From Thermoplasmatales archaeon (GTDB taxonomy: Archaea; Thermoplasmatota; E2; UBA202; JdFR-43): a DNA stretch of 32,483 nucleotides. A model generated the notes under the pieces. The model was not told where the DNA came from and did not search any database. It worked only from the letters and a program-made list of their open reading frames with translations. The translations under genes and the position numbers were made by a program. Shown here one piece after another: positions 6,026 through 31,047 of this stretch (the first letter of the stretch is position 1; each line of letters starts with the position of its first letter). The stretch is taken from NCBI GenBank assembly GCA_014361245.1, contig JACIWB010000012.1, positions 1-32,483 on the forward strand, in the 5' to 3' direction.

Positions 6026-8479
6026 TTATTTTCTTTTATAGAGATAAGTTGCAGCTAATCCAATTATTGCTATTAAGATTATAATAATTATCAAGGAAAT
6101 TCCTTTATTATTTTCCTCATTTAAAACTTCGAATGTTTCTGCATCCATGCAATAGATTTTTCCAATCGCTGAAAAAAATACTTTCCCATTTGTTATGACT
6201 GGCTTTGATATAGGAGTAGTGATGAAATTATATAAGCCATTAATTTCATAAGCGGGAGAAAAGCTGAAATCCACCTTTCCACTTTTATTAACTGCATAAA
6301 ATCTTCCATCGGTTGATGATACAAAAATTTTATCCCCATATGCATCAATTCCTTTAAGAGATGCATTTGTTGAAAAAATCCATTTTAGCTCGCCATTTTT
6401 ATCAATACAGTATAGATTTCCGTCTAAACAAGCGGCATATATTTCATTTCTGCAGTCTATATCTACAATTCCCCATCCAGTGTCTAATTTCCATTTTAGC
6501 TCGCCATTTTTATTGAGGCAATAAATTCCATCTATAGCCCCAAAATAGATATTATCCTCTATTAATAAAGATAAAATTTTCCCGCTTGCATTGTAACTCC
6601 ATTTATCACAATAAATTTTATTTCCATCCACATAGTATATTTTATCCCTGTATTTTATTAAATCATTACTTAAATAGATTTTATCGCCCACCTCAATCTC
6701 CTTTCCTCCTTCTCCTTTCCATAAGCTTTTTCCATCAATAGAAAATGAATAAGAAATTTTATCAGTTGCAACATATATTATTCCATCCTTTATTTCCAAA
6801 TCATTTATTTCCTCACCAAAACTTTTCTCCATTATTAAACTTCCATTCTCACTTAAAACATACAGAGTTTTATTGAAACAGGCGTATATATTTTTCCCAT
6901 CACTTTTTAAGATTGCATAATCATAATTTTTATCACCGAATTCAAAAGTCCATAAAAGCCTTCCTTCTCTTCCCTTGCTGCCTTCATTTTTCTTAAAATT
7001 AGGGGTGAAATTGTAAGCAACACCATCGATTCTAACCCATCCAGCAGGAGGCACATCAACAACACCTTTCAACTTATTCAAAGAAGATGTATTCCATATA
7101 TATGTTGGATTTCCAAAAAATGCCCAGAGGGAATTGTTGAATATTAAATTTCCATCTGTTATCTTGCAATCTGTTGTAAAATCAGTTATTGGAGGAGAAA
7201 ACATTATTTTCTTTACAACTTCAGCATCTATTTTTCCATAATATTGGTTTCCCAATTCTTCGAATTTTATGTCTCTTTCAGAAGGAGTATAAAAGAGAGT
7301 ATAATATTGATAGCCGGTTGCATTCAGCAAAAGATGAGCAAGCCTGAAGAAAGGCGCTTTAAGCACTTCATATCCTATAATATCTCTCCTTACTTTAAAA
7401 TCAAATGGATTGTTTGCACTCCATAAAAATCCATCCTTCTTCCTTATAACATTATGATGGTATAAGCCAAATTCAAGAAGAGCTATTTCCTTTTCCTCCG
7501 CATCAGCAATAAGCCATTGAGCATTCATCACTCCTGTATTTCCTTCAAGAAGATATTTTATTACATCATCTATACTGCTTCCATACTGGATTGCCATCCT
7601 TGCCCTTATTGCAAGAGGTATCCCACGCAACTTAAAGAACCCCTGTATGAAAGTTGTTTCAATCATAGCCAAGCCCTCATCATTCTGCCAGAAATCCTCA
7701 TCGCTCCATATATAGCCAGGAGAAGTAGAAATAATCAAGCGATGGCCGCTGCTCGGCTCTATATCAAGAATTACATTCCATCTTTGAGCTATATAATAGC
7801 TATACCACCAACCCCCACACCACACACTATCGCTTATAACAATATTTCCATCTTTTGTCGCATTTCCAACAGCTGCAAATCCATTGCAGTGATGGACTGG
7901 ATAAAATGAGAGAGCAAATTCATAAAAATCCTTGGTTTTAAAAGAAAAAGCATTAAAGATATCTCTCAAAATATGAAATCCTTTCGGGAAGTTTGTTAAA
8001 ATACTCATCAGTTCATACATTTCATTAAGAGCAAGAATGTCCTCATATGTTATATCCTCTCCATATATTTTAACCCCTCTTGCTTTTGCTCCATCAGCTA
8101 TTCCCCTTATCTCTTCTCTATACTCTTCTGGATAATATGGCCAGAATATTTTTATAGCAAGTTTTTTGCATTCATTCCACCATCTGGCAGATAATTCTTC
8201 GTATCTTGAAGAATTTATATCAACTGGCAAATATTTTATAATAAATGGGCAATTATGAATTATATTGCTCCATCTATAAATCATATCAGTTATTTCAGCA
8301 TATAAAAGCCATCCATGCTGATAGCCACGCTCATATGCATCTCCTTCTATATGAACATAAATCCATCCCTGAATGTTATACCTGCATGCATTTCCATAAA
8401 CACTGTTTCCTTCGATTTTTAATTCATAATTAACAGGGGTTATAAACAGCAAGGCGAGTAGCAATGAAAGAAATTTCAT
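6026..8479 (-). CDS. Exported C45-like acyltransferase/hydrolase with beta-propeller and C-terminal membrane anchor
   Basis: 817 residues from the ATG at 8479. Signal peptide: MKFLSLLLALLFITPVN. Residues ~40-520 resemble the peptidase C45 / acyl-CoA:6-APA acyltransferase (NTN hydrolase) family: GDAYERGYQHGWLL near 46-59 and HHCNGFAAVGNATKDG with putative nucleophile Cys198. In that family cleavage before the Cys creates the active N-terminus. Residues ~540-785 hold WD/PQQ-type propeller blades (repeats such as YCLNKNGELKWKL), including near-identical repeats at the DNA level around 6380-6420 and 6485-6525. A transmembrane helix (~793-813, SLIIIIILIAIIGLAATYLY) and KRK end the protein, so both domains should face outside. 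An upstream extension to 8623 runs into feoB and lacks sense. A TATA-like TTATTTAAAA lies about 24 nt upstream inside the feoB end. The substrate is unknown. Confidence 0.78.
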   Translation of the reverse strand: MKFLSLLLALLFITPVNYELKIEGNSVYGNACRYNIQGWIYVHIEGDAYERGYQHGWLLYAEITDMIYRWSNIIHNCPFIIKYLPVDINSSRYEELSARWWNECKKLAIKIFWPYYPEEYREEIRGIADGAKARGVKIYGEDITYEDILALNEMYELMSILTNFPKGFHILRDIFNAFSFKTKDFYEFALSFYPVHHCNGFAAVGNATKDGNIVISDSVWCGGWWYSYYIAQRWNVILDIEPSSGHRLIISTSPGYIWSDEDFWQNDEGLAMIETTFIQGFFKLRGIPLAIRARMAIQYGSSIDDVIKYLLEGNTGVMNAQWLIADAEEKEIALLEFGLYHHNVIRKKDGFLWSANNPFDFKVRRDIIGYEVLKAPFFRLAHLLLNATGYQYYTLFYTPSERDIKFEELGNQYYGKIDAEVVKKIMFSPPITDFTTDCKITDGNLIFNNSLWAFFGNPTYIWNTSSLNKLKGVVDVPPAGWVRIDGVAYNFTPNFKKNEGSKGREGRLLWTFEFGDKNYDYAILKSDGKNIYACFNKTLYVLSENGSLIMEKSFGEEINDLEIKDGIIYVATDKISYSFSIDGKSLWKGEGGKEIEVGDKIYLSNDLIKYRDKIYYVDGNKIYCDKWSYNASGKILSLLIEDNIYFGAIDGIYCLNKNGELKWKLDTGWGIVDIDCRNEIYAACLDGNLYCIDKNGELKWIFSTNASLKGIDAYGDKIFVSSTDGRFYAVNKSGKVDFSFSPAYEINGLYNFITTPISKPVITNGKVFFSAIGKIYCMDAETFEVLNEENNKGISLIIIIILIAIIGLAATYLYKRK

Positions 8480-8499: not shown

Positions 8500-10203
8500 T
8501 TAAATAAGTATTGTCTTCATTATAAATCCAACAAATAAGGCAGTGAAAAGCATTATTGTTGTGGATTTTATCATATCCTTCCAGCCAAGCTCCTTTAGAA
8601 GAACCGCAAATGTAGCAACGCACGGAAAATATATCGCAAGTACCGTTACCGCCACCACCAGTTGGGGAGCGCTTAGCCCAAGAGGCAGGAGCAAGCCCGC
8701 CGCCAAATCCTTCCTGACAAAACCCATCAGCAAAGGAACGGCTGCTTCACCAGGTAGCCCAAAAATAGGTTGCATGAGAGGTGAAAATATATTTGCGATT
8801 TTTGAAATTATATCACTTGAATAGAGTATGCCAGTTATAAAAACTCCAGCGAAGAGCCAGGGTAAAGCATCTGCGAGGAACCATTTTATTCTCATGTATG
8901 TTTTCTTGAAAATTGAGGAAATGCTCGGCAATCTATAAGGAGGAATTTCTAAAAATATTTCAGAACTCTCACCTTTTAAAAATTTATTCAGCAGTAAGCC
9001 ACCAGAAATAAAAATAATTGCAAGTGTTGAATAAACTATCAATATGTATTTTATGCCATATTTTCCCAGAATAGCAAAAATCATTGCGGTTTGTGCCATG
9101 CAAGGGATAGCTATGCCAATAAGAGTCGCTGTAATAAAGCGCTGTCTCTTTGTATCAAGTATTCTTGAAGAAAGCACTCCTGGAACATTACAGCCCAATC
9201 CAAGAAAAACAGAAATTATGCCAGAACCATGCATTCCAAGGCGATGAAAGATATTATCAACAAGCGTGGATAAGCGTGGTAAATAGCCAGTATCTTCAAG
9301 TATTGCAAGAATAAGATAAAATGAAAATATATAGGGAAGAACAACTCCGAATGGAACATATAAACCAGTTGTAAGTAAGCCGAGAGATTGCATAAAATCT
9401 ATTTCCCCATCTATTAATTTTCCTATAATTACATCATGAATAAAACCCTCTCCTAAAAAATCTCCAATTTTCATTATGAATATTTTATAAATTTCAAAAA
9501 GTGGATCGGAGATATATTTTATTATTTCCTCTGCTATAAATCTAACTGATAAAAAAGAAATTAGCAAAACAAAAATTGCTATTGGTAAGCCAGTAAATGG
9601 CTTTATTGATGCCTCGGATAATCTATCTTTTAAGGTATGATGGCGATGTCTAACTTTTTGAACAATCTTAACAATTCTTCCTATCTCCATCCATTTTTCA
9701 TCGTCGCTGGTTTTCTTTCTTTCCTTAGCTTTTGCATCCTTTATTCTTTCTGTTAGCTCCTTTATTCCCTCACCAGTAAGGGCAACGGTTGCAACAATAG
9801 GTGTATCAAGAATTTTTTCAAGCTTCTTTAGATCTATTTCAATTCCTTCATGTCTTGCCTCATCCCATAAATTTAGGGCAATAACAACTGGTTTATTTCC
9901 CTCCAGTAGCTCAAGGGTTAAAAACAGGTTTCTTTCTAAATTTGTTGCATCAACAACATTTATCACTAAATCAGCTTCATCAAACAATTTTTTTGCAACT
10001 TCCTCTGCTTTGTTTGAAGGCATCAATGAATATGTGCCAGGCGCATCTATAATTTCAAATGTTTTTTCCCCCAACTTCATCTTTCCTTTTGTAAAATCAA
10101 CAGTTGTGCCAGGGTAGTTTGCCGCTATCACGCCCGCCCCAGTGAGGCGGGAGAAAATAACGCTTTTTCCAACATTTGGGTTTCCCATCAAAACTATTTT
10201 CAT
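8500..10203 (-). CDS. feoB: Ferrous iron transporter FeoB
   Basis: 567 residues, somewhat shorter than typical archaeal or bacterial FeoB. The N-terminal G domain shows GNPNVGKS (G1), NYPGTTVDF (G2), DAPGTYSL (G3) and NLWDEA (G4, with L-W in place of the usual M). A spacer helix region rich in charged residues follows (about 150-200). The membrane domain contains the two Gate-like repeats, with LGLGCNVPGVLSSRIL and LPGEAAVPLLMGFVRKDLAAGLLLP. It imports Fe2+ across the cytoplasmic membrane. The start overlaps the feoA stop by 4 bases, and DtxR-like operators precede feoA, so iron repression is expected. Confidence 0.96.
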   Translation of the reverse strand: MKIVLMGNPNVGKSVIFSRLTGAGVIAANYPGTTVDFTKGKMKLGEKTFEIIDAPGTYSLMPSNKAEEVAKKLFDEADLVINVVDATNLERNLFLTLELLEGNKPVVIALNLWDEARHEGIEIDLKKLEKILDTPIVATVALTGEGIKELTERIKDAKAKERKKTSDDEKWMEIGRIVKIVQKVRHRHHTLKDRLSEASIKPFTGLPIAIFVLLISFLSVRFIAEEIIKYISDPLFEIYKIFIMKIGDFLGEGFIHDVIIGKLIDGEIDFMQSLGLLTTGLYVPFGVVLPYIFSFYLILAILEDTGYLPRLSTLVDNIFHRLGMHGSGIISVFLGLGCNVPGVLSSRILDTKRQRFITATLIGIAIPCMAQTAMIFAILGKYGIKYILIVYSTLAIIFISGGLLLNKFLKGESSEIFLEIPPYRLPSISSIFKKTYMRIKWFLADALPWLFAGVFITGILYSSDIISKIANIFSPLMQPIFGLPGEAAVPLLMGFVRKDLAAGLLLPLGLSAPQLVVAVTVLAIYFPCVATFAVLLKELGWKDMIKSTTIMLFTALFVGFIMKTILI

Positions 10204-11212: not shown

Positions 11213-12463
11213 ATGAACGATGAGATTGAAGAAGCGGTGGAGGAAATTATTTCAATTGTTAATGTTGAAAGGGAGAAAATTGAGGATGATTTAAAGAGAT
11301 TTATTGATTATGGAGTTCCTTTAAGTCAGGCAAAGGATGCTATATTGCATAAATATGGAAAATTATCAAGGGAAAGGAAAATAAAGGATATAAAGGCAAA
11401 TGAAAGAGGGATTAATACAGTAGGAAAGATAATATTTATAGATGAAAAAGAAGTAGAAGTTAGGGGGGAGAAAAGGAAGATTTTTCATGGTTTAATAGGA
11501 GATGAAACAGCAATAATTCCATTCACTGCATGGAAAGATTTCAATATAAAAGTAGGAGATGTTTTAAGGATAAAAAATGCTTCATCAAGTGAATGGGAAG
11601 GAAATCCACGCCTAAGCTTTTCTGAATGGACTGAAATAACAAAACTTGATTATGATATAGAATTGATTAAAAGAGCACCAAAAAAATATAATCTTATTGA
11701 TTTAAAAGCTGGGTTATCAAATGTTGAGGTAAGAGGTAAGATTGTTGAAATTGAGGAAAGAGAAGTAAATATTGCAGATGAGGCAAGAAAAATTTTTTCT
11801 GGAATAATTGAAGATGAAACAGCAAGAATAAGATTCACTTCTTGGAAGGATTTTTCGCTTGAAAAGAATAAGGTTTATAGAATAAAAGGGGCATATATAA
11901 GGAACTGGCGGGGCGCCCCCCAGCTTATTTTCGATGAAAACTCAGATGTTGAAAAGCTGGATGAAGAAATTTTCAGGGAGAGGAAAGTTATTCCTATATA
12001 CAAGGTTGTGGAAGCAGGCGGGGGCATAGATTTGCTGATTGAAGGGACAATTCTTGAGTTGAGAAAGGATTCTGGAATAATTTTTAGATGCCCAAAATGC
12101 AACAGGAGGACGAGGGAAGGTGTTTGTGAGGAGGATGGGAATGTTGATGCTATTCCAGATTTAAGAATAAGGGCTCTTGTTGATGATGGAACTGGGGCGG
12201 TTGATGTAATATTTAATAGAGAAATATCTGAGAAAATTCTGAATAGGAAAATGGATGAATATCTATCAATGGCCAAGGAAGCAATGGATTACGATATTGT
12301 TACTGAGGATATAGAAGATAAGCTTATTGCACACCCTGTAAGAGTTTATGGCGATTCAATCCAGAGTGATTTTATAATTACAATATTTGCAAAGGATGCG
12401 GAAATAATAGGAATAGATGCGGAAAAGGAGGCGAATGAACTTTTAGCAGGTATGGGTGATTAA
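11213..12463 (+). CDS. Replication protein A (ssDNA-binding), multi-OB-fold subunit
   Basis: 416 residues. An N-terminal helical region (~1-60) is followed by three OB folds. Two tandem ones are obvious by internal repetition: IFHGLIGDETAIIPFTAWKDF (~89-109) and a close match IFSGIIEDETARIRFTSWKDF (~193-213). The third (~265-405) contains a zinc-finger-like insert, CPKCNRRTREGVCEEDG. Its first three Cys are in place, but the fourth ligand, usually His, is Asp here. The protein coats single-stranded DNA in replication and repair. It is followed, two bases after its stop codon ends, by the RPA-associated protein, the arrangement usual in euryarchaea. Confidence 0.9.
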   Translation: MNDEIEEAVEEIISIVNVEREKIEDDLKRFIDYGVPLSQAKDAILHKYGKLSRERKIKDIKANERGINTVGKIIFIDEKEVEVRGEKRKIFHGLIGDETAIIPFTAWKDFNIKVGDVLRIKNASSSEWEGNPRLSFSEWTEITKLDYDIELIKRAPKKYNLIDLKAGLSNVEVRGKIVEIEEREVNIADEARKIFSGIIEDETARIRFTSWKDFSLEKNKVYRIKGAYIRNWRGAPQLIFDENSDVEKLDEEIFRERKVIPIYKVVEAGGGIDLLIEGTILELRKDSGIIFRCPKCNRRTREGVCEEDGNVDAIPDLRIRALVDDGTGAVDVIFNREISEKILNRKMDEYLSMAKEAMDYDIVTEDIEDKLIAHPVRVYGDSIQSDFIITIFAKDAEIIGIDAEKEANELLAGMGD

Positions 12464-12464
12464 A

Positions 12465-13286
12465 ATGAGGGAACCAGCATGGAGAATATTTGCAGCTGAA
12501 TATAATGATTCAATGCATGTTGCTGAAAGTAAGGTGGAAAAATCTCCTAAATATGTAATAACCCCTCTTGGTGCAAAAGTGAATAGATTATACATTGTTG
12601 GGGTTTTAACTGACTTGGAAGGGATGGGCGGAGAGGGAATAAGAAGAAAAGCAAGAATATCAGATCCAACTGGCTCGCATATAGTATATGCAGAAACCTT
12701 CAAGCCAGAAGTAGCAAGCATTCTTGCAGATATCCAAATTCCAAGCTATGTAGCAATTGTTGGAAAAGCCCGAATTTATGAGCCAGAGGAAGGGGTGCTA
12801 TATGTTTCTGTAAGAGCGGAAATTGCTAAAGAAGTGAATGAAGAAATAAGGAAATACTGGATTCTTGAAGCATGCAAAAATATGGCATTGAGAATAGATG
12901 CGATAAAGGAGGCAATGAATATGAAAAATCCAAGTGTTGCAAATTTGGTTGAAATTGGCTATCCAACAATAATTGCTGAAGGAGTTGTAGAAGCGATTAA
13001 ATTGTATAAGGAAATAGATATAGAGCACTATGAAATACTTTTAAAAGAGGCACTTTCTTTTATAACATCAAAGAAAATAGATATAAAAAAGAATTTAGAA
13101 GGCGAGGAAAAAATATTGAAAATAATTGAGGGAATGCAGGGTAATGAGGGAGTTGACTGGGAAAAAGTTGTTGAAGAGGGAATAAAGACAGGTATAGAAA
13201 AGGATTCTGTTGAAGAAATAATATATTCCCTTATGGAAAAGGGATTAATATATGAACCACAGCTTGGAAAACTTAAATTGGTTTAA
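12465..13286 (+). CDS. RPA-associated protein (COG3390 family)
   Basis: A 273-residue protein starting MREPAWRIFAAEY. The ATG at 12465 follows GGGTGAT, a strong archaeal ribosome site; the GTG at 12456 overlaps that site and is rejected. The N-terminal OB fold (about 40-130) shows VNRLYIVGVLTDLEGMGG and DPTGSHIVYAETFKP. A helical and winged-helix-like C-terminal half (about 190-273) ends MEKGLIYEPQLGKLKLV. In euryarchaea this protein forms a complex with RPA. It is translated from the same mRNA as the RPA gene. Confidence 0.88.
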   Translation: MREPAWRIFAAEYNDSMHVAESKVEKSPKYVITPLGAKVNRLYIVGVLTDLEGMGGEGIRRKARISDPTGSHIVYAETFKPEVASILADIQIPSYVAIVGKARIYEPEEGVLYVSVRAEIAKEVNEEIRKYWILEACKNMALRIDAIKEAMNMKNPSVANLVEIGYPTIIAEGVVEAIKLYKEIDIEHYEILLKEALSFITSKKIDIKKNLEGEEKILKIIEGMQGNEGVDWEKVVEEGIKTGIEKDSVEEIIYSLMEKGLIYEPQLGKLKLV

Positions 13287-17360: not shown

Positions 17361-19193
17361 TTATATATTTGAAAAAATCATATAAGAAAATATAGAGGAA
17401 ATTGTAAAAATAAAAGTTGCTATTGGCAGAGATTTTCCTATGGTATAGAAATATTCTATTTTATCATCCCCTTCATCTATTCCATTTGCGAGCCTTAGTA
17501 TTAAAAATACAAGAAGAATAATATAGATACCAATTACAATATCAAAATCAGTTGATGATTCAACATAGAATATCTTTCCAAATAGAGGGATTGTTACATC
17601 CTCAGAAAATGAGAAATTCAATGAAGAAAGGATTTTTTGCATTAAATTTGTCATTCCTAGAGTCACTCCCCCTATTAAGGGAGCAAAAAATGTTGCTGTT
17701 GAGCGAAGGGAAGAAGTTATTGAAGCCAAGCCATCTTTTATTTTCCTCTCGACATCCTGAAGTTGCTTCAGATGGTCAGCTATTTTAACTATTGCAATTC
17801 CTGCATATTCATAACTTTTCCTAACTCCTTCAATAAAAATTTTTATTATAGCCCTTATCCTATCTGAATAAACATTCGCAAGAGCCCCATATTCAGCATC
17901 AAAAAACGCATCCTCTATTTTTATCCTTCTTGAAATAAGGTTATAAAATGCTTTTGCAAAAACTTCTCCTATGGTTGAGCCTTTCATTGTTTGAGCTACA
18001 TGGTTAAATGCTTCTTCCGGCGGTTTGCCTTCAGCAACCCTCCTTCCAAGTATATATAAAGCATCCCCGAACTCTTTTTCCATTTTTCTTATCCTATCTC
18101 TCTCCTTTTTATCCTTGCTATATGTAGAGAGGCAATAAAATGAAACTGAAATTGCTATGCCCCATATGAGGAAAAATTTTTTAAAATTTAAAGGGAAATA
18201 AATTGATGCAATAGTAAATGGGATAAAAATAAATACTGAAATTAGAGCATTTCTCAAGTTGCTTAATTTTTTCTGCGGCAATGAAGGCGGATTAAAAGTT
18301 GCGGGACGATTTGCAAGAATTTTTCTTATATAAAAGAAAAGGAAAACAGGAAGTAGGATATCATAAAATATGATTATATGAAATATGGAGAATTTAAGCC
18401 CTATCACGCTCACGGCAGGGAGCATTGCTACCGTTGCAAGGGGGAGCATGAAGCCGAGAGAATATATTATTAGAGTTGGTTGATGAAGCTTATTTGAGAA
18501 ATCATTCATTAAATCCCTTGTTCCTTCTAAAACAACATCAAGAGCTCTATCCAAAGTAGAAATTCTATCATTTTCTTTTTCATTTACAGAATTTCTTATT
18601 AAATGTATAGCTCTCTTAAAATATTCACTCCATTCCCCCCATAAGTTCGAAAAATATGTTATTGCATCATCTATGCTTTTATGTATTCTTATTTCTAAAT
18701 CCCAGATAATTTTTCTTAAATCTTTTGCGAGAGAAGAATTTGATTCTTTAGCTGCAAAATAAAAAGCTCTTTCAAGATTTGGAACTAACTTTAGATACAT
18801 TACTAAATATGATATTATTTCTGGAATATCTCCCAAGGAATGCGCCTTCATATATCTTGCTTTTATTTTAGGGTATTCACTTGTATAATGCAAAGAAAGA
18901 AGGGGAAAAATAAAGAGAATTATAATGATTAGAAAAATTGTTAAAAATCCCATATTTTTTATTGAAAAATCATAAAATGCAAAAATTGAAATCGATATTA
19001 ATAGGGAAATTAAAAGTGAAATAATTGCACAAATATAGGAAAAATAAATTATTTCATATGGCTCAAGATCTGTTCCAATAAAATGAAGGCTATCCAAAAA
19101 TTCCTTCGATACCTCCTTATTTATTTTTTCTTTCTCCTCCTCCTTTATCTTTATTTTTCCAACAAATTTTCTGCATAAATTTTCAAATTGCAT
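17361..19193 (-). CDS. Archaeal type II/IV secretion platform protein (GspF/ArlJ-like)
   Basis: 610 residues with two T2SSF-type cytoplasmic helical domains (about 115-210 and 375-490). Membrane helices are visible near 48-70, 80-103, 240-290, 315-350, 515-525, 550-570 and 590-608. Conserved platform motifs include [26 protein letters not shown] and [22 protein letters not shown]. It would be the inner-membrane platform of a type IV pilus-like or archaellum-like machine. It overlaps the ATPase gene by 11 bases. No prepilin-like gene lies nearby, so the filament or cargo is unknown. Confidence 0.84.
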
Positions 19194-23598: not shown

Positions 23599-24069
23599 AT
23601 GTTAATTATTTCAGCGATGTTTCTTTATAAACAATTTCCAGTTTCAATAGACCAAGAAAAATGTTCAAAATGCAGGATATGTGTCTCAATATGCAATTGC
23701 TTTTCATATAACAAAGATACAAATACTGTTTTGGTTAATAATATTTCATGCAAGGGTTGCGGCGTCTGCGTTGCCTCCTGCCCTTCTTCCGCTATCCATC
23801 ATTTGCAGGATGATTCCTTTTTCTATTTATCTGAAAAGGCGGAGGTGAATAAATTTGAGTGTGAAAAATGCCTTTATGAATTTTTTGAAGACGAAGATTC
23901 GATAATTTTTTGCGAAAGAAGATTTGATATGGGAGTTGCTATTAAAAAATTTTGCGAGGGGAAAAGCATAAAGGTTAAAAAATGTATTTTTTCAGATGAA
24001 ATTTCAAGTGATGAAAAATTAAAGAAATTTTCAAAAGTTATTCATTTGTTTGGTGTTAAAAATGATTGA
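23599..24069 (+). CDS. 2[4Fe-4S] ferredoxin-like electron-transfer subunit with Cys-containing C-terminal domain
   Basis: 156 residues. Two 4Fe-4S sites: C22-x2-C25-x2-C28-x3-C32 (next to C34) and C51-x2-C54-x2-C57-x3-C61 with the usual Pro. The remaining ~70 residues contain a CEKC pair (88/91) and further Cys at ~105, 118 and 128; I do not recognise this part. ATG at 23617 is a possible alternative start. The position between the FlxA-like and HdrCB genes suggests it wires electrons inside the complex, like FlxB. Its end overlaps the next gene by 8 bases. Confidence 0.78.
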   Translation: MLIISAMFLYKQFPVSIDQEKCSKCRICVSICNCFSYNKDTNTVLVNNISCKGCGVCVASCPSSAIHHLQDDSFFYLSEKAEVNKFECEKCLYEFFEDEDSIIFCERRFDMGVAIKKFCEGKSIKVKKCIFSDEISSDEKLKKFSKVIHLFGVKND

Positions 24070-25120
24070 AGATATAATAAACAGCAGTAAAGCATATTAT
24101 TGCGTTGAATGCAGAAAATGTAGCTCAGCATGCCCAGTTACAAGAGGTTATGGGAAGTTTTCCCCAGCAAATATAGTAGAACGCTCCCTTATCAGCTTGG
24201 AAGATGAAATAATTTATTCCTATGATATATGGAAATGCCTTACTTGTGGAATTTGTGAAGAAATATGCCCATCTGGCGTAGATTTTTTAAGCTTTATGAA
24301 GGAAATAAGAAAAATTGCGAGAGAAAATAAAAATTTTGGAATTCCAGCCCATGAAAATATTTTTGAGGAAATATCTTGCCTGTTTGATAAAAATGATATA
24401 TCTTTAAAAATGGAGAATGTTGAAACAGATGATAAGTCAAAAATTCTCTATTTTGCTGGATGCTTGCCAGTATATGATGCATTTTTTGGAGAAATTGGAT
24501 TCAGTGGAAGATCAATTGCGGAAAATACGATTAAAATTTTGAACCATTTTGATGTTATTCCAGCTGTATTGTTTTCATGTTGCGGGCACGATGCCTTATG
24601 GAACGGAAATAAAGAAATTTTTGAAAAATTGAAAGGAAAAAATATGGAAAAAATTAAAGGTTTTGAAAAAATAATATTTTCTTGCCCTGAATGTTACAGA
24701 ACCTTTAAATTTGATTATAAACTAAATATTGAAATGATGCATATCTCTGAATTTCTTGCAAAAAATTCTTTAGAAGGAAATTTAAATAAAACATGCACAT
24801 TTCATGATTCATGCAGGCTCGGGCGCCATCTTGGGATTTATGAGGAGCCAAGAATTGCGCTGAGAAAAATTGGATATGAAATAAAGGAAATGGAGCATTC
24901 AAAAGAAAAATCAATTTGCTGCTCAACTTCTTGTTGGATGGCATGCGACTGGAAAGCGGAAGAAATAAGAAAAGAAAGGCTCACTGAAGCGGAAGAGCTG
25001 GCTAAATTGCTCATCACTACTTGCCCGAAATGCAAAATTCATTTCCTATGCACAATGAGCCATGAAAAATATAATCTTGAAGTAAAGGATTTGGTTGAGG
25101 TAATTGGAGAAGCAATATGA
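24062..25120 (+). CDS. HdrC-HdrB fusion (HdrD-like) disulfide-reductase subunit
   Basis: 352 residues from the ATG at 24062, preceded by GGTG; upstream TTG/GTG codons in frame are less likely. The N-terminal HdrC-like part has two [4Fe-4S] motifs, CVECRKCSSACPV and CLTCGICEEICPS. The C-terminal HdrB-like part carries two CCG domains: GCLPVYDAF, SCCGHDALWNG and SCPECYRTF; then FHDSCRLGRH, CCSTSCWMAC and TTCPKCKIHF. CCG Cys ligate noncubane clusters that cleave a heterodisulfide in HdrB. In the second domain the CCG reads CCS, so one site may be altered. The substrate here is unknown because methanogen coenzymes are not expected. Confidence 0.88.
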   Translation: MIEDIINSSKAYYCVECRKCSSACPVTRGYGKFSPANIVERSLISLEDEIIYSYDIWKCLTCGICEEICPSGVDFLSFMKEIRKIARENKNFGIPAHENIFEEISCLFDKNDISLKMENVETDDKSKILYFAGCLPVYDAFFGEIGFSGRSIAENTIKILNHFDVIPAVLFSCCGHDALWNGNKEIFEKLKGKNMEKIKGFEKIIFSCPECYRTFKFDYKLNIEMMHISEFLAKNSLEGNLNKTCTFHDSCRLGRHLGIYEEPRIALRKIGYEIKEMEHSKEKSICCSTSCWMACDWKAEEIRKERLTEAEELAKLLITTCPKCKIHFLCTMSHEKYNLEVKDLVEVIGEAI

Positions 25121-26391
25121 AGAATGTGCTTATCATAGGCGGGGGCGTTGCTGGCATCCAGGCGGCGCTTGATTTAGCGGATAGGGGAATACATGTCTAT
25201 TTAGTTGAAAAGGAGCCAAGCATTGGCGGGAGAATGGCTTTGCTTGATAAAACGATGTCAACAAATGATTGCAGTATATGCATTCTTGCTCCCAAGATGA
25301 ATGAATGCGCATCCCATCCCAACATAGAAATTCTTGAATATTCTGAAGTTGTTGGATTGAATGGCAGTGCTGGAAATTTCAAGGTTAAGGTTAAAAGGAA
25401 GGCAAAATATGTTGATGCGAGCAAATGCACTGGATGCGGAGATTGTATGGAGAAATGCCCAACGGAGGTGCCAAATGAATATAACAGCTATATAGATAAA
25501 AGGAAGGCTATTTTTCTTCCATTTCCTCAATCTGTTCCAAGGAAAGCAACAATTGATAAAAGGTATTGCTTGAAGTTGAATAAGAATAGGTGCGGGCTTT
25601 GCCAGAAAATATGCAAGGCAAAAGCAATAGATTATAGCCAGGAAGATAAGATAGTTGAGTTAAATGTTGCTTCAATAATAGTTGCAACTGGCCTTTCAAC
25701 ATACGAACCATATGATATTAAAGAGTATGGTTATGGAAAATTTGCAAATGTTCATACCTGGATTGAATATGAAAGGTTAATAAATGCATCAGGCCCAACG
25801 CATGGGCATTTAAAATGCGCTCCAGATGGAAGAAGGCCGAAGAAAATTGCATTTATTCAATGTGTTGGATCAAGAGATGTTAAAAGGTGTGAGTGGTGTT
25901 CTTCTGTTTGCTGCATGGTCTCAATAAAGAGTGCAATGCTTGCAAATGAGCATTACAATGACATTGAATCCTTCATATTCTATTCAGATTTAAGAGTTTT
26001 CAGCAAAAGATTTTATGAATACAGCAAGAGAGGAGAAAAGGACTACAAAATTACTTACATTCATGCCCGCCCAGGAGAAATAAAAGAAGACAAAAATACA
26101 AGAAATTTAATAATATATTATGAAGACGAAAATGAAGGAAAAGTAAATGAGCTGGAAGTGGAAATGGTTATTCTTGCTACACCTATAATGCCATCCAAAA
26201 GCAATCTTGAAATTTCAAAAATTCTTGGAATAGAGCTTGATGATTATGGATTTATTAAAACAGACGGAGTTAGCACAACAAGGCAGGGAATTTATGCTGC
26301 GGGCTGTTGCTGCGCTCCCAAGGATATAACAGAAAGCGTGTATCAGGCAAGCGGTGCCGCATGCATGGCGGCGGAGTGGTGCCATGCCTAG
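25117..26391 (+). CDS. HdrA-like flavoprotein 1 (short, QmoA-like)
   Basis: 424 residues, starting directly with the FAD Rossmann motif VLIIGGGVAGIQAALDLADRG, without the N-terminal Cys domain of full HdrA. HdrA features include the NDCSICILAPKM Cys segment and HPNIEILEYSEV. The 4Fe-4S motifs are CTGCGDCMEKCP and a second, altered one, CGLCQKICKAKAI. Further conserved parts are IAFIQCVGSRD, CSSVCCMVSIKSAM, and the C-terminal GIYAAGCCCAPKDITESV. Size and architecture resemble QmoA of sulfate reducers. Overlaps the upstream gene by ATGA and the next by 8 bases. The flavin here is the likely bifurcation site or an electron relay. Confidence 0.88.
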   Translation: MKNVLIIGGGVAGIQAALDLADRGIHVYLVEKEPSIGGRMALLDKTMSTNDCSICILAPKMNECASHPNIEILEYSEVVGLNGSAGNFKVKVKRKAKYVDASKCTGCGDCMEKCPTEVPNEYNSYIDKRKAIFLPFPQSVPRKATIDKRYCLKLNKNRCGLCQKICKAKAIDYSQEDKIVELNVASIIVATGLSTYEPYDIKEYGYGKFANVHTWIEYERLINASGPTHGHLKCAPDGRRPKKIAFIQCVGSRDVKRCEWCSSVCCMVSIKSAMLANEHYNDIESFIFYSDLRVFSKRFYEYSKRGEKDYKITYIHARPGEIKEDKNTRNLIIYYEDENEGKVNELEVEMVILATPIMPSKSNLEISKILGIELDDYGFIKTDGVSTTRQGIYAAGCCCAPKDITESVYQASGAACMAAEWCHA

Positions 26392-28054
26392 GATTGGGGT
26401 TTTTGTGTGTGATTGTGGAACGAATATAGCGGGTTTTTTGGATGTTCCTGCAGTATGTGAATATGCAAAGAGTTTGCCAGATGTAGTTTATGTAAAGGAA
26501 AATATGTATACCTGCTCAAATGCTGGTTTGCAGGAAATAATGAATGCAATTAAGGAGCATAACCTTGATAGAGTTGTTGTTGCATCCTGCACTCCCCGCA
26601 CTCATGAGCCACTTTTTAGAAAGGCATGTGAGATGGCTGGACTGAATAAGTTTCTTTTCGAATTCGTGAATATACGCGACCAATGCTCATGGGTTCATCA
26701 AAAGGAAAGGGAGAAAGCTACAGAAAAGGCAAAGGATTTGATAAGGATGGGTGTTGCAAAAGCCCGTCTTCTTGAGCCACTTGAAGAAATAAAAATACCT
26801 GTTGAAAGAGCATGCCTTATTATAGGAGGAGGAATTTCTGGATTAACTTCAGCTATCGCTCTTGCAAAACATGGAATAGAGGTGCATTTGGTTGAAAAAG
26901 AAGAAAGACTCGGAGGAATTTTAAATAATATATACAGGGTTTATCCAGAAGATGAGCCAGCGAGGAAAATTTTAGAAAATATCATGGAAGAGTTAAAAAA
27001 ATACAGAATAAATATATATTTAGCGAGCGAGGTTGAAAAAGTAGATGGGTATATAGGTAATTTCAATGTAAAAATAAAGGGAAAAACAAACAAAGAAATA
27101 AAGGTTGGAACAATAATTGTTGCAATTGGGGCAAGACCATATCAGCCAATGTATATGTATAATTATCAGGAATATGAAAATATAATAACTCAAATAGAGC
27201 TTGAAAAAATGCTTAAAGAAGGAAAAATAAAAGGAAAGAATTTTATCTTTATACAGTGCGTCGGCGGGAAGGGGGAAAGGGTGAGATATTGTTCGAGGAT
27301 ATGCTGCATGAATTCAATAAAAAATGCAAGAATAATAAAGAAAATGATTCCAGATTCAAATGTTTATATAGTTCATAAAGGTTTGCAGACATATGGAGTT
27401 GAATATGAAGAATATACGAGGAAGGCAAGGGAGGAAGGTGTTAGATTTATAAGAGTAGCAGATAACATTCCAACAGTTTCATCAATTGAAAGAAGAGATG
27501 GAAAAATTGTTGTTGGTTTTCATCATCCAGGGCTTAGAAGAAAAATTGAATTGCAAGGTGATTTAGTAATTCTCTCAACCCCTCTTGTAGCGGGTGAAGA
27601 TGCAAGGAAAATATCTCAAATGCTAAAAGTCCCTCTTGGTTTGGATGGCTTTTTCTTTGAAGCACATGTTAAGCTTCGCCCAGTTGATTTCGCAACAGAT
27701 GGAATATATATGTGCGGCTCGTGCAGGGCGCCCGCTAGCGTTGAGGAGGCAAAAATACAGGCTATGGCTGCTGCTGGAAGGGCACTGATTCCTATGGTAA
27801 ATGGTTTTGTTAAAGTTGAGCCATATACACCATATATTGATGAGGGAAAATGCAGGGCTTGCGGGATGTGCGTTGAAGTTTGTCCTTATGGAGCAATGAG
27901 AATTGTTGAAAAGAATGGAAGGAGGATTGCAGAAAATATACCCGCTGCTTGCAAGGGTTGCGGGGCATGCTCATCTTCATGCATACATAAGGCAATTGAT
28001 ATGAGACATTTCAGAGATGGCCAGATAATTGCTGAAATAGAGGTGATAGATTGA
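26384..28054 (+). CDS. HdrA-like flavoprotein 2 (full N-terminus, QmoB-like)
   Basis: 556 residues from the ATG at 26384, with MPRIGVFVCDCGTNIAGFLD as expected for an HdrA start; ten residues of upstream frame lie inside HdrA1 and are rejected. The N-terminal domain (~1-140) includes VVASCTPRTHEPLF. The FAD domain begins CLIIGGGISGLTSAIALAKHG (~145). Then IFIQCVGGKGERVRYCSRICC and FATDGIYMCGSCRAPASVEEA. Two C-terminal 4Fe-4S motifs: CRACGMCVEVCPYGAM and CKGCGACSSSCIHKAI. It differs strongly from HdrA1, so they are paralogues that probably form a heterodimer. In QmoB the MvhD domain is fused at the C-terminus; here MvhD is the next gene. Confidence 0.89.
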   Translation: MPRIGVFVCDCGTNIAGFLDVPAVCEYAKSLPDVVYVKENMYTCSNAGLQEIMNAIKEHNLDRVVVASCTPRTHEPLFRKACEMAGLNKFLFEFVNIRDQCSWVHQKEREKATEKAKDLIRMGVAKARLLEPLEEIKIPVERACLIIGGGISGLTSAIALAKHGIEVHLVEKEERLGGILNNIYRVYPEDEPARKILENIMEELKKYRINIYLASEVEKVDGYIGNFNVKIKGKTNKEIKVGTIIVAIGARPYQPMYMYNYQEYENIITQIELEKMLKEGKIKGKNFIFIQCVGGKGERVRYCSRICCMNSIKNARIIKKMIPDSNVYIVHKGLQTYGVEYEEYTRKAREEGVRFIRVADNIPTVSSIERRDGKIVVGFHHPGLRRKIELQGDLVILSTPLVAGEDARKISQMLKVPLGLDGFFFEAHVKLRPVDFATDGIYMCGSCRAPASVEEAKIQAMAAAGRALIPMVNGFVKVEPYTPYIDEGKCRACGMCVEVCPYGAMRIVEKNGRRIAENIPAACKGCGACSSSCIHKAIDMRHFRDGQIIAEIEVID

Positions 28055-31047
28055 AGATACTTGGACTGCTGTGTAACTGGTGCAGTTATGCGGGAGCAGA
28101 TTTAGCGGGAGTAAGCAGATTTCAATATCCTCCAAACATAAGAATTGTTCGTGTTATGTGTTCAACGAGGGTTGAGTCATCTTTTATTATTGAAGCATTT
28201 TTAAAAGGAGTTGATGGAGTGCTCGTCGGAGGTTGTCATCTTGGAGATTGCCATTATGTTACTGGAAATTATTATACGATAGGAAAAATTTATGTTGCAA
28301 AAAAATTGCTGAAGTTTGCTGGCATTAATCCTTCTCGTTTAAGGCTGGAGTGGATTTCTGCAAGCGAGGGAGAGAAGTTTGCAAGGGTTGTTGAAGAATT
28401 CACAAAGGAAATAGAAGGCTTAGGTCCTTTAAAAAATGAGTTAAAGGATGATACCCTTCTTAAAGTTGCATATAATGTTTCTCTTAAACCAAGGGCAAGA
28501 ATTATTGCATCAAAGCATAGAATGCTGTCTTTTGAAGGAAATAAATACGGTGAAATTTACACTGGCTATGAATTTGATAGAATAAGTGATGAAATTTTAA
28601 AAGATGAAATGAATATAGAGGCAATAAAATTTTTATTAAAAGAAGAAAAATCCTTCGAGGAAATTTCAAGAATAATTGATAAAAAAGTTTTGTATTTCTA
28701 TTTATTGGATTTGATAGAAAAAGGAGAGGTATCTTTTAGAGAGGAAAATGGAAGGTATTTATTTTCGATAGCAAATAAAAAAGAAGAAAAAAGCGAGCCA
28801 TTAATATTTAATGGAAATATAGCCAAGCATGCCCATATTATAATTGGAGGGGGAGCTTATGGAATAAATAAAGCAGTTGAAATTGCAAATAAAGGAGAAA
28901 ATGTTGTTATTGTTGAAAGATTTCCTTCAATAAATAAATATACGATAAGAAAGCATGCCTCTTCTCTAGAAAATGGTTGCAAATATGAGGAATTTTTAAA
29001 TTTATTAAAGGAGGGAAAAATAGCCATTTTAAATAATTCAATTTTAAAAAGCATAAATGATGGAATTGTAAGGATAATAAAATATGCTAGCAGGGTAAAT
29101 GAAAATTGCAATAACTGCAATATATGCTATGAAGTATGTCCATTGAGGACAGTTGATAGAGAGAGAACCCTTTTTTCGAGAAAAGCTGTTTATGGCAGAG
29201 ATGGATTGCCATGCACTTTCTTCCTTGAGAGAGAAAGCCCTTTCTGCCAGACAAATTGTCCAGCTCATGTAGATGTTCGCGGATATGTGGCGAGGATTGC
29301 TGAAGGAGATTTTGAAGGGGCTTTAAATCTGATAAGGGAGCGTCTGCCGTTGCCAGGCGTGCTTGGGAGGGTGTGCCCTCATCCCTGTGAGGAAATTTGC
29401 AGGAGAAATGGAATTGATGAGGCAATTTCGATAAGATTGCTGAAGAGGTTTGTTGCGGATTGGGAATGGGAGAGCAAGGGAAAAATCGAGCTTGGAAGGA
29501 TGCCAGCAAATGAGAATAATATATATAAAGTGGCTGTAATTGGCTCGGGTCCCGCTGGCTTGACTGTTGCATACGAACTTGCAAGGATGGGATATAAAGT
29601 TAAAATTTTTGAAGCTTTACCAGTTGCTGGAGGAATGCTTGCTGTTGGCATCCCCTCTTATAGACTTCCAAAGGATGTGCTTAAAAGAGAGATAGATGCT
29701 ATTCTTGAAATGGGTGTTGAAATTCAGCTGAATTGCAGGATTGGCGAGCAAATATCTTTTGATGAATTGAGGAAAAATTACGATGCTGTATTCATAGGAG
29801 TTGGAGCCCATAAAAGCAGAAAAATGGGGGTGGAAGGAGAAAATTTGATAGGAGTTATATCAGGTGTTGATTTTTTAAGAGAGGTAAATATATATCCTGA
29901 AAATGTTCGTGCCATCATCTCTGGAAAGAAAGTAGTTGTTGTCGGAGGAGGAGATGTTGCAATAGATGCTGCAAGATGCGCAATAAGGTTTGGATGCGAT
30001 GTAACAATTTTATACAGGAGAAGCAGGAATGAAATGCCAGCTCGGGAGGAGGAAATAAGGTATGCAGAGGAAGAAGGAGTAAATTTTCGCTTCCTAACCG
30101 CCCCATTAAAAATTGTTGGGAAAGAAAGTGTGGAAAAAATTGAATGCATTGAAATGGAGCTCGGCGAAGCAGATGAAAGCGGGCGCAGGAAGCCAGTGCC
30201 AAAAAAGGGAAGTAATTTCTTTATTGAAGCGGATATTGTTATCTCCGCCATAGGACAGCAATCAGAACTTGAATTTTTACCAGATGAAATAAAGAAAAAC
30301 GGGCGCATTTTAGTTGATGAAAATACTGGAGCAACTCCTCTGCCTGGCGTGTTTGCTGGAGGTGATGCTGTTAGCGGGCCATCAATAGTAATAGAAGCAG
30401 TTGCATGGGGGAGAAGGACTGCAAAGGCAATAGATGCATATCTGCACGGCAAGAAAATAGAATTTGACCCAGTTGAAAGAAATATAAATAGGGCAATAGC
30501 TAGCTATGAAGATGTTGATTTGATGAAAAGAAATGTTGTCCTATCTATATTTGAAAAGAAGGAAAGAAAGAAGGTTGAAGAAATAGACATTGAAGAAAGG
30601 AGAAGCACATTTAAGGAAGTTGAAAAAGGATTTGATAAAAAGAGGGCGATTGAAGAAGCTTCTCGCTGTCTTGCCTGCAGAGCTTGTTTGGGCTGCGGGA
30701 TATGCGGGAATGAATGCATGAGGAATGCCATTGATTATGAAGAAAAGGAAAAAGAGATTGAAATAATTGCAAAATCAATAGAAATTGATCCAGAGATAAG
30801 ATTCAACTATGAATTTTTTACCCCTTTTGAAATTGAGGATATGCTTGATTTAGGGATAATCATGAATTTTAATGGAGAAAAATTAAAGAAATTATGCTTC
30901 CTGAATTTTGAAGAAAATAAATATTTTGAAGAATTGAAGAAGAGAATTATTGCAAGCGGAATTGAGATAGCTGATGATGCAGATTTTAAAGTAGATTTCC
31001 GCTATTCTGAGAGCGATTATTATAAAAAAATTAGGAGGATGATTTAG
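28051..31047 (+). CDS. MvhD - wHTH-like - degenerate HdrA - GltD/NfnB fusion protein
   Basis: 998 residues, TTG start after a strong AGGTGAT ribosome site, overlapping the HdrA2 stop. Domains in order: MvhD/FlxD (1-125) with CNWCSYAGAD (8/11), MCSTR (37), GGCHLGDCHY (62/67); winged-helix-like segment (185-240); degenerate HdrA-like Rossmann unit with IIIGGGAYG (263-271) and Cys cluster CNNCNICYEVCPL (353-364). Then a complete GltD/NfnB-type flavoprotein (~385-850): Cys-rich SPFCQTNCPAHVDVRGYVARI and CPHPCEEIC, FAD motif VAVIGSGPAGLTVAYEL (494-510), NAD(P) motif VVVVGGGDVAIDAARCA (628-644), and second FAD-binding GVFAGGDAVSGPS. A C-terminal Cys cluster CLACRACLGCGICGNEC (~872-888) precedes a ~100-residue tail. 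With the FlxA/NfnA-like protein, this would supply an Nfn-like flavin module physically joined to the Hdr complex. Confidence 0.84.
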   Translation: MKILGLLCNWCSYAGADLAGVSRFQYPPNIRIVRVMCSTRVESSFIIEAFLKGVDGVLVGGCHLGDCHYVTGNYYTIGKIYVAKKLLKFAGINPSRLRLEWISASEGEKFARVVEEFTKEIEGLGPLKNELKDDTLLKVAYNVSLKPRARIIASKHRMLSFEGNKYGEIYTGYEFDRISDEILKDEMNIEAIKFLLKEEKSFEEISRIIDKKVLYFYLLDLIEKGEVSFREENGRYLFSIANKKEEKSEPLIFNGNIAKHAHIIIGGGAYGINKAVEIANKGENVVIVERFPSINKYTIRKHASSLENGCKYEEFLNLLKEGKIAILNNSILKSINDGIVRIIKYASRVNENCNNCNICYEVCPLRTVDRERTLFSRKAVYGRDGLPCTFFLERESPFCQTNCPAHVDVRGYVARIAEGDFEGALNLIRERLPLPGVLGRVCPHPCEEICRRNGIDEAISIRLLKRFVADWEWESKGKIELGRMPANENNIYKVAVIGSGPAGLTVAYELARMGYKVKIFEALPVAGGMLAVGIPSYRLPKDVLKREIDAILEMGVEIQLNCRIGEQISFDELRKNYDAVFIGVGAHKSRKMGVEGENLIGVISGVDFLREVNIYPENVRAIISGKKVVVVGGGDVAIDAARCAIRFGCDVTILYRRSRNEMPAREEEIRYAEEEGVNFRFLTAPLKIVGKESVEKIECIEMELGEADESGRRKPVPKKGSNFFIEADIVISAIGQQSELEFLPDEIKKNGRILVDENTGATPLPGVFAGGDAVSGPSIVIEAVAWGRRTAKAIDAYLHGKKIEFDPVERNINRAIASYEDVDLMKRNVVLSIFEKKERKKVEEIDIEERRSTFKEVEKGFDKKRAIEEASRCLACRACLGCGICGNECMRNAIDYEEKEKEIEIIAKSIEIDPEIRFNYEFFTPFEIEDMLDLGIIMNFNGEKLKKLCFLNFEENKYFEELKKRIIASGIEIADDADFKVDFRYSESDYYKKIRRMI

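Follow-up and report, generated by a model that had tools for sequence, protein, structure and literature searches.

The window analysed here, a stretch of 32,483 nucleotides, is contig 12 (JACIWB010000012.1) of a Thermoplasmatales archaeon genome of 1.48 Mb that is 98.96% complete. On its minus strand lies a gene for a protein of 817 amino acids (8479..6026), with an ATG at 8479 and the stop codon at 6026-6028, and the extent of the whole gene, 817 codons plus stop (6026..8479), follows from the open reading frame and from its full-length relatives. An alternative start, a GTG at 8623, would lengthen the frame by 48 codons but was rejected, as these codons run into the last part of feoB (8500-10203) and the start to which the relatives align is the ATG at 8479. 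From the N-terminus, the protein carries a putative signal peptide (approximately residues 1-20; 8420..8479, all features being on the minus strand), recognized by reading the sequence alone from a hydrophobic N-terminus here and in relatives, followed by a domain of the N-terminal nucleophile (Ntn) hydrolase type. A presumed cleavage would divide this domain into an alpha segment (residues 31-197; 7889..8389), in which the PF04916 and NF040521 matches begin at residues 45-46, and a beta segment (residues 198-490; 7010..7888), assigned by hmmsearch of the family profiles A2, A4 and A5 against PLBD1 and PLBD2. An eight-bladed beta-propeller of PQQ/BamB type (residues 503-783; 6131..6973) is predicted next from a PQQ_2 match, the AlphaFold model and a structure alignment, and a putative membrane helix with a KRK tail (residues 794-817; 6029..6100) forms the C-terminus. 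The latter appears as a helix at residues 795-816 in the AlphaFold model of the window protein, and hydropathy indicated a C-terminal hydrophobic helix in the frames of 10 of 13 propeller-bearing relatives. An earlier note on this DNA had proposed such an order of signal peptide, Cys198 domain, propeller and C-terminal helix, and the open reading frame, the Pfam and NCBIfam matches, the model and the recurrence in the family all support it. Nine close public relatives were found, eight in metagenome-assembled genomes labelled Thermoplasmata, Thermoplasmatales or Candidatus Thermoplasmatota and one labelled 'archaeon'. A chance origin of the gene is excluded, because it is present in all 16 other genomes searched from the family of the host (14 whole, two fragmented at contig ends), its ratio of nonsynonymous to synonymous substitution rates (dN/dS) is low and Cys198 is invariant.

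The Ntn domain matches PF04916 (Phospholip_B) with 45.2 bits at a cut-off of 27, covering residues 46-328 and positions 29-300 of the 487 in the profile, and NF040521 (C45_proenzyme) with 86.9 bits over residues 45-357, which is 2 bits over the cut-off of 85. No match to Pfam AAT (PF03417) was obtained up to E 1. Searches of 29 related Ntn domains with E up to 0.1 gave PF04916 and NF040521 in 29/29 each and AAT in 10/29, and when six fused relatives were scanned singly against NF040521, they reached 77.0 to 87.7 bits, three of them staying below the cut-off. Profile A2, made from the 29 related domains, led to three sequences when compared with the PDB at E up to 10, all of them PLBD1 or PLBD2 (best E 3.9e-5). 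The same three were detected at E 1.2e-10 to 2.2e-10 with profile A4, which was made from 14 more distant relatives, all of them unfused except for the fused L077; at E up to 0.01 these 14 match PF04916 in 13, NF040521 in 14 and AAT in four cases. The next PDB matches of A4 were the first part of 2x1c/2x1d ('ACYL-COENZYME', which we take to be penicillin acyltransferase) at E 1.4e-5 and a helicase at E 0.65, and profile A5 also matches the first part of 2x1c/2x1d (E 4.9e-5). From the PF04916, NF040521, AAT and PDB profile matches, the Ntn domain is best placed between families C95 and C45, with a portion after the Cys that appears PLBD-like.

A true C45 acyltransferase or hydrolase of the isopenicillin-N-acyltransferase kind, which would move or remove acyl groups on amino compounds, may explain why NF040521 is passed and why A4 and A5 align with the first part of 2x1c/2x1d, and A5 is also matched by the ordinary C45 protein of the genome (E 1.2e-17). 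Yet this is an unlikely identity given the lacking AAT match, which is also confined to the stated minority of relatives, the fused relatives that fall below the NF040521 cut-off, and the portion after Cys198, which matches PLBD1/2 only. The term 'C45-type' in the earlier note is thus correct in so far as the broad C45 model of NCBI is passed, by the 2 bits mentioned, but not in the narrower sense, since AAT is not matched and the solved structures found with the family profile are PLBD1/PLBD2 (C95) only. As a separate observation, the same genome encodes a second NF040521/C45 protein (L004:556-1830, G000:C35) of 425 amino acids, which seems to begin with a signal peptide, matches AAT, lacks a propeller and looks like a distant paralogue and a more ordinary C45 protein; a single-sequence search with it matched no solved structure.

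For PLBD2, Cys249 is described as the nucleophile, together with Asn432, Arg463, His266, Trp269 and Thr330 (PMC2739207). The candidate for the N-terminal nucleophile in the window protein is Cys198 (7886..7888), which is kept in 30/30 rows of the close and 32/32 rows of the wide alignment and corresponds to the Cys of the relatives' profile that aligns with Cys249 of PLBD2 (3fbx_A). Cys198, Asn356 and Arg402 were assigned via a joint alignment bridging to PLBD2 through distant, mostly unfused relatives (profile A4). Asn356 (7412..7414) falls at the position of Asn432 in the A4 and A5 alignments and is N in 31/32 rows, and Arg402 (7274..7276), R in 31/32 rows, is the probable equivalent of Arg463. 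Thr276 (7652..7654) is found at the position of Thr330, which contributes its backbone to the oxyanion hole, in the A2 alignment (numbered by offset from Cys249), with T in 29/30 close and 30/32 wide rows. The one catalytic position that does not conform is that of His266, where a His or Arg would be expected and the A2 alignment to PLBD1 places Asp217 (7829..7831) of the window protein; this column holds D in 20, H in four, N in four and E and Q in one each of the 30 close rows, and Q in 12, H in 10, D in six, N in three and E in one of the 32 wide rows. The last ~35 residues of the alpha segment vary, with a distance between N152 and C198 of 20 to 56 residues over the 32 rows, which would fit a removable linker ahead of Cys198 like that of PLBD2. 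Judged by the profile matches, the invariance of Cys198 and its alignment to Cys249 of PLBD2, the suggestion that Cys198 is the candidate nucleophile of a surface-tethered Ntn hydrolase was a good one. The best name would be a PLBD-like Ntn hydrolase with propeller and membrane anchor, 'PLBD-like' being preferred to 'PLBD' because the His266 position holds Asp217; the enzyme class itself is already known.

In a comparison with the copy from the same genus, the Ntn domain has a dN/dS of 0.05, the propeller one of 0.13 and the tail one of 0.39, and the fusion gene is under purifying selection. Asp217 at the His266 position in this lineage would be in keeping with a catalytically dead protein or a non-enzymatic surface adhesin that only retained the Ntn fold, but Cys198, Thr275, Asn356 and Arg402 are nearly invariant and selection is stronger on the Ntn domain than on the propeller, so that we regard loss of the enzyme function as very improbable.

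The PQQ_2 match of the propeller reached 40.8 bits (cut-off 27.6). Two AlphaFold runs, each with 10 close sequences, were performed for the full protein and for the Ntn domain alone, and residues 503-782 of the propeller were modelled with block means of 62-90, except for 741-760 (39 and 57). Alignment of the propeller model gave Z 29.1 (rmsd 2.0, 264 aligned) with Tako8, Z 29.0 with Cake8 and Z 24.9 with BamB (4xga), indicating an eight-bladed PQQ/BamB-like fold as modelled. It thus resembles BamB/YxaL-type eight-bladed propellers in fold (Z ~25, and up to 29.1 for designed eight-bladed ones) but differs from them as it is a domain of an enzyme here. This structure search of the PDB covered residues 501-783 and so carries no information on the Ntn domain.

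The fusion had been called unusual in the earlier note, which does not hold within this archaeal lineage, where it is common: it occurs throughout the family of the host and in three further families of the same class. Some match at E 1e-5 was found for 49 of 59 relatives, part of them to the propeller only, and Ntn-domain matches were present in families f1, f2, f4, f6 and f10 and were not found in f3, f5, f7, f8 and f9, each represented by a single or few genomes. Across the phylum, 46 of 243 genomes match PF04916, 35 of them above the cut-off, and none of 14 control genomes does. A search with an unfused relative led to 78 matches out of 340, some of them short and falling on ordinary C45 proteins. 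Among 30 loci from this search, a propeller was matched in 13 and not in the other 17; these propeller-free frames comprise 13 with a C-terminal hydrophobic helix, three without and one that is truncated. Three propeller-free proteins of other classes were checked for a stalk, and CarboxypepD_reg was detected above the cut-off in one and with weaker matches in the other two. In several unfused relatives, such a stalk of CarboxypepD_reg/Ig-like type appears to be combined with a C-terminal membrane helix. In a tree of 32 domains, well-supported branches force at least two changes between the fused and the unfused state, and a single change was seen in 4% of bootstrap trees, suggesting that a second propeller fusion probably arose separately in another class; the second fused lineage, L077, is a long branch of less certain position. 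The scan of genome contigs reaches close relatives only; L043, the tenth locus that it gave, is bacterial and matches residues 445-567 weakly. No relative was found in viral contigs searched with the protein and the alignment, nor in phages searched with the unfused relative L045.

The window protein contains 11 N-X-S/T sites (5.0 expected), a number reached in 13 of 2000 shuffles, and the host genome has a match to STT3; both would fit an extracellular glycoprotein. Neither ECH_1 nor Acyl-CoA_dh_1 had a match in the host genome, at its completeness of 98.96%, and the control genomes matched in 13/14 and 9/14 cases respectively. With acyl-CoA dehydrogenase and enoyl-CoA hydratase both undetected, the host probably does not burn the fatty acids that would be set free, and use of the amine half or the removal of the acyl group as such may be the likelier point of the reaction. 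This bears on the idea of a phospholipase B that acts on ester phospholipids of other organisms. PF04916 is named for such an activity, which has been reported for relatives from Dictyostelium and human (PMC8053727), but the fatty acids set free would be without evident use in a host in which these two enzymes are undetected, and we consider a phospholipase B quite unlikely. The same source describes the phospholipase B activity as disputed (PMC8053727).

Taken together, the protein is likely a cell-surface, type I membrane-anchored and self-cleaving Ntn hydrolase that acts on an acyl-amide and belongs to a prokaryotic group between the lysosomal PLBDs and the C45 acyltransferases. Judging from its sequence, it would be exported, N-glycosylated and anchored via the C-terminal helix. 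By analogy to PLBD2 and other Ntn hydrolases, self-cleavage would occur between His197 and Cys198, after which the variable linker ahead of Cys198 would leave the pocket and the freed Cys198 could attack a non-peptide acyl-amide bond (or an ester). The backbone of Thr276 and Asn356 would form the oxyanion hole and Arg402 would hold Asn356, roles that we assign to residues whose conservation is observed. The propeller may serve as a stalk, and possibly as a binding module, between enzyme and membrane. The substrate would most likely be an exogenous acyl-amide, stemming from detritus of bacteria or eukaryotes and hydrolysed outside the cell, and its amine half would be used, as acyl-CoA dehydrogenase and enoyl-CoA hydratase went undetected in the genome.

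Several points weigh against this assignment. The similarity to PLBD is remote, and in a single-sequence search PLBD1 comes up no better than at E 0.015. In the alignment of A4 with the PLBDs, posterior values are low for the parts with the Cys and the Arg, and the match of Arg402 to Arg463 depends on the alignment: both residues are aligned in PLBD2 with A4 (at low posterior), three columns apart in PLBD1 with A4 and two apart in PLBD2 with A5. Asp217 replaces the His or Arg that tunes the nucleophile of Ntn hydrolases, and the activity could be altered or lost. The AlphaFold models are not usable for the Ntn domain, with pLDDT values of ~25 around Cys198 in both runs and means of 51 for the full protein and 33.6 for the Ntn domain alone. 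Over 30 relatives, the sequon excess is modest (218 compared with 169.9), and the missing beta-oxidation genes carry no direct information on the substrate.

The closest known systems are PLBD2 and PLBD1, the lysosomal 66.3 kDa protein and its paralogue (MEROPS C95; PF04916). The positions of the nucleophile Cys, the Asn and probably the Arg align, as do the PG and ETT motifs and a near-terminal D-x-K-(I/V) motif; the window protein differs in being archaeal, propeller-fused and anchored, in its remote sequence, in Asp217 instead of His266 and in a spacing from the Cys to that position that is longer by two residues. The PLBD orthologue p67 of T. brucei is likewise described as PLBD-like and as a type I membrane glycoprotein, but it is lysosomal, and a propeller is not mentioned in the available part of this source (PMC8053727). 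C45 acyltransferases (NF040521; 2x1c/2x1d) are similar in that the window protein passes NF040521 and its first part can be aligned by profile, and dissimilar in that it lacks the AAT match and is PLBD-like after the Cys. Prokaryotic members of PF04916 as such are already in print: Bifidobacterium, Mycobacterium and Adlercreutzia are reported to have proteins remotely homologous to eukaryal phospholipase B (PF04916, 45% eukaryal; PMC9903846). Unlike the present host, these are Actinobacteria, and neither archaea nor a propeller or membrane anchor is mentioned for them in the accessible portion of that paper. In Mycetohabitans, nine megaplasmids carry a gene for a 'C45 family peptidase', whose match extends over 86% of the Ntn domain with ~30% identity (best E 1e-33). 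One such protein, WP_013428477.1, is 30% identical over 396 aligned columns, the HHC motif among them, matches PF04916 with 55.5 bits and finds only PLBD1/2 in the PDB; it differs from the window protein in its size of 445 amino acids, in PF04916 as its sole Pfam match and in a His at the Asp217 position. On plasmid pBRH01 of Mycetohabitans rhizoxinica (L106:2474-3811), a PLBD-like protein with the lysosomal-type His is annotated as 'C45 family peptidase', this bacterium being a fungal endosymbiont. Among the open-licence papers listed in literature searches, none describes such archaeal PF04916/propeller Ntn proteins, as judged by titles and abstract openings.

Neighbouring genes were compared among the loci as well. 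The genes feoB, purQ and endA stand next to the gene in only one other locus, that of the same genus (L005), and an operon with them was dismissed since, in the flanks examined, they are not kept beyond it. In the other loci, with flanks of ~1.5 kb or less in L006-L033 and up to 6 kb in L034-L042, a C25 peptidase in L039 was the one further neighbour that matched at E 1e-8, and no conserved operon is indicated within the flanks examined. A different neighbour pair recurs in L024, L025, L026 and L028. Elsewhere in the window, a Peptidase C25 domain at 37-1182 may belong to another exported hydrolase of the host, and a 998-residue FlpD-flavin oxidoreductase fusion adjoins genes for a CCG-domain protein and a ferredoxin-flavoprotein (24050-31047), an arrangement resembling an Hdr-like electron-transfer cluster. 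Two open reading frames, at 17361-19193 (610 amino acids) and 12456-13286 (276 amino acids), have no Pfam match up to E 1e-5; the former adjoins a gene for a T2SSE ATPase.

The label 'C45' of NCBI takes in PLBD-like proteins, and annotation by that label can therefore mislead. PLBD1 and PLBD2 are described as lysosomal proteins without an agreed substrate (PMC9140057). A conserved secreted archaeal relative and a compact bacterial one would provide model enzymes and comparative constraints on the residues that matter. Our tentative view, which we hold to be possible but somewhat doubtful, is that the archaeal relatives of PLBD work outside the cell, where the membrane-proximal module was swapped (an Ig-like stalk or, at least two times, a propeller) and the enzyme was kept, and that the lineage of the window protein replaced the catalytic His by Asp. 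On the same view, the archaeal and bacterial enzymes could be tractable stand-ins for the substrate class of the lysosomal proteins, which would most likely be lipid acyl-amides that are deacylated for their amine part.
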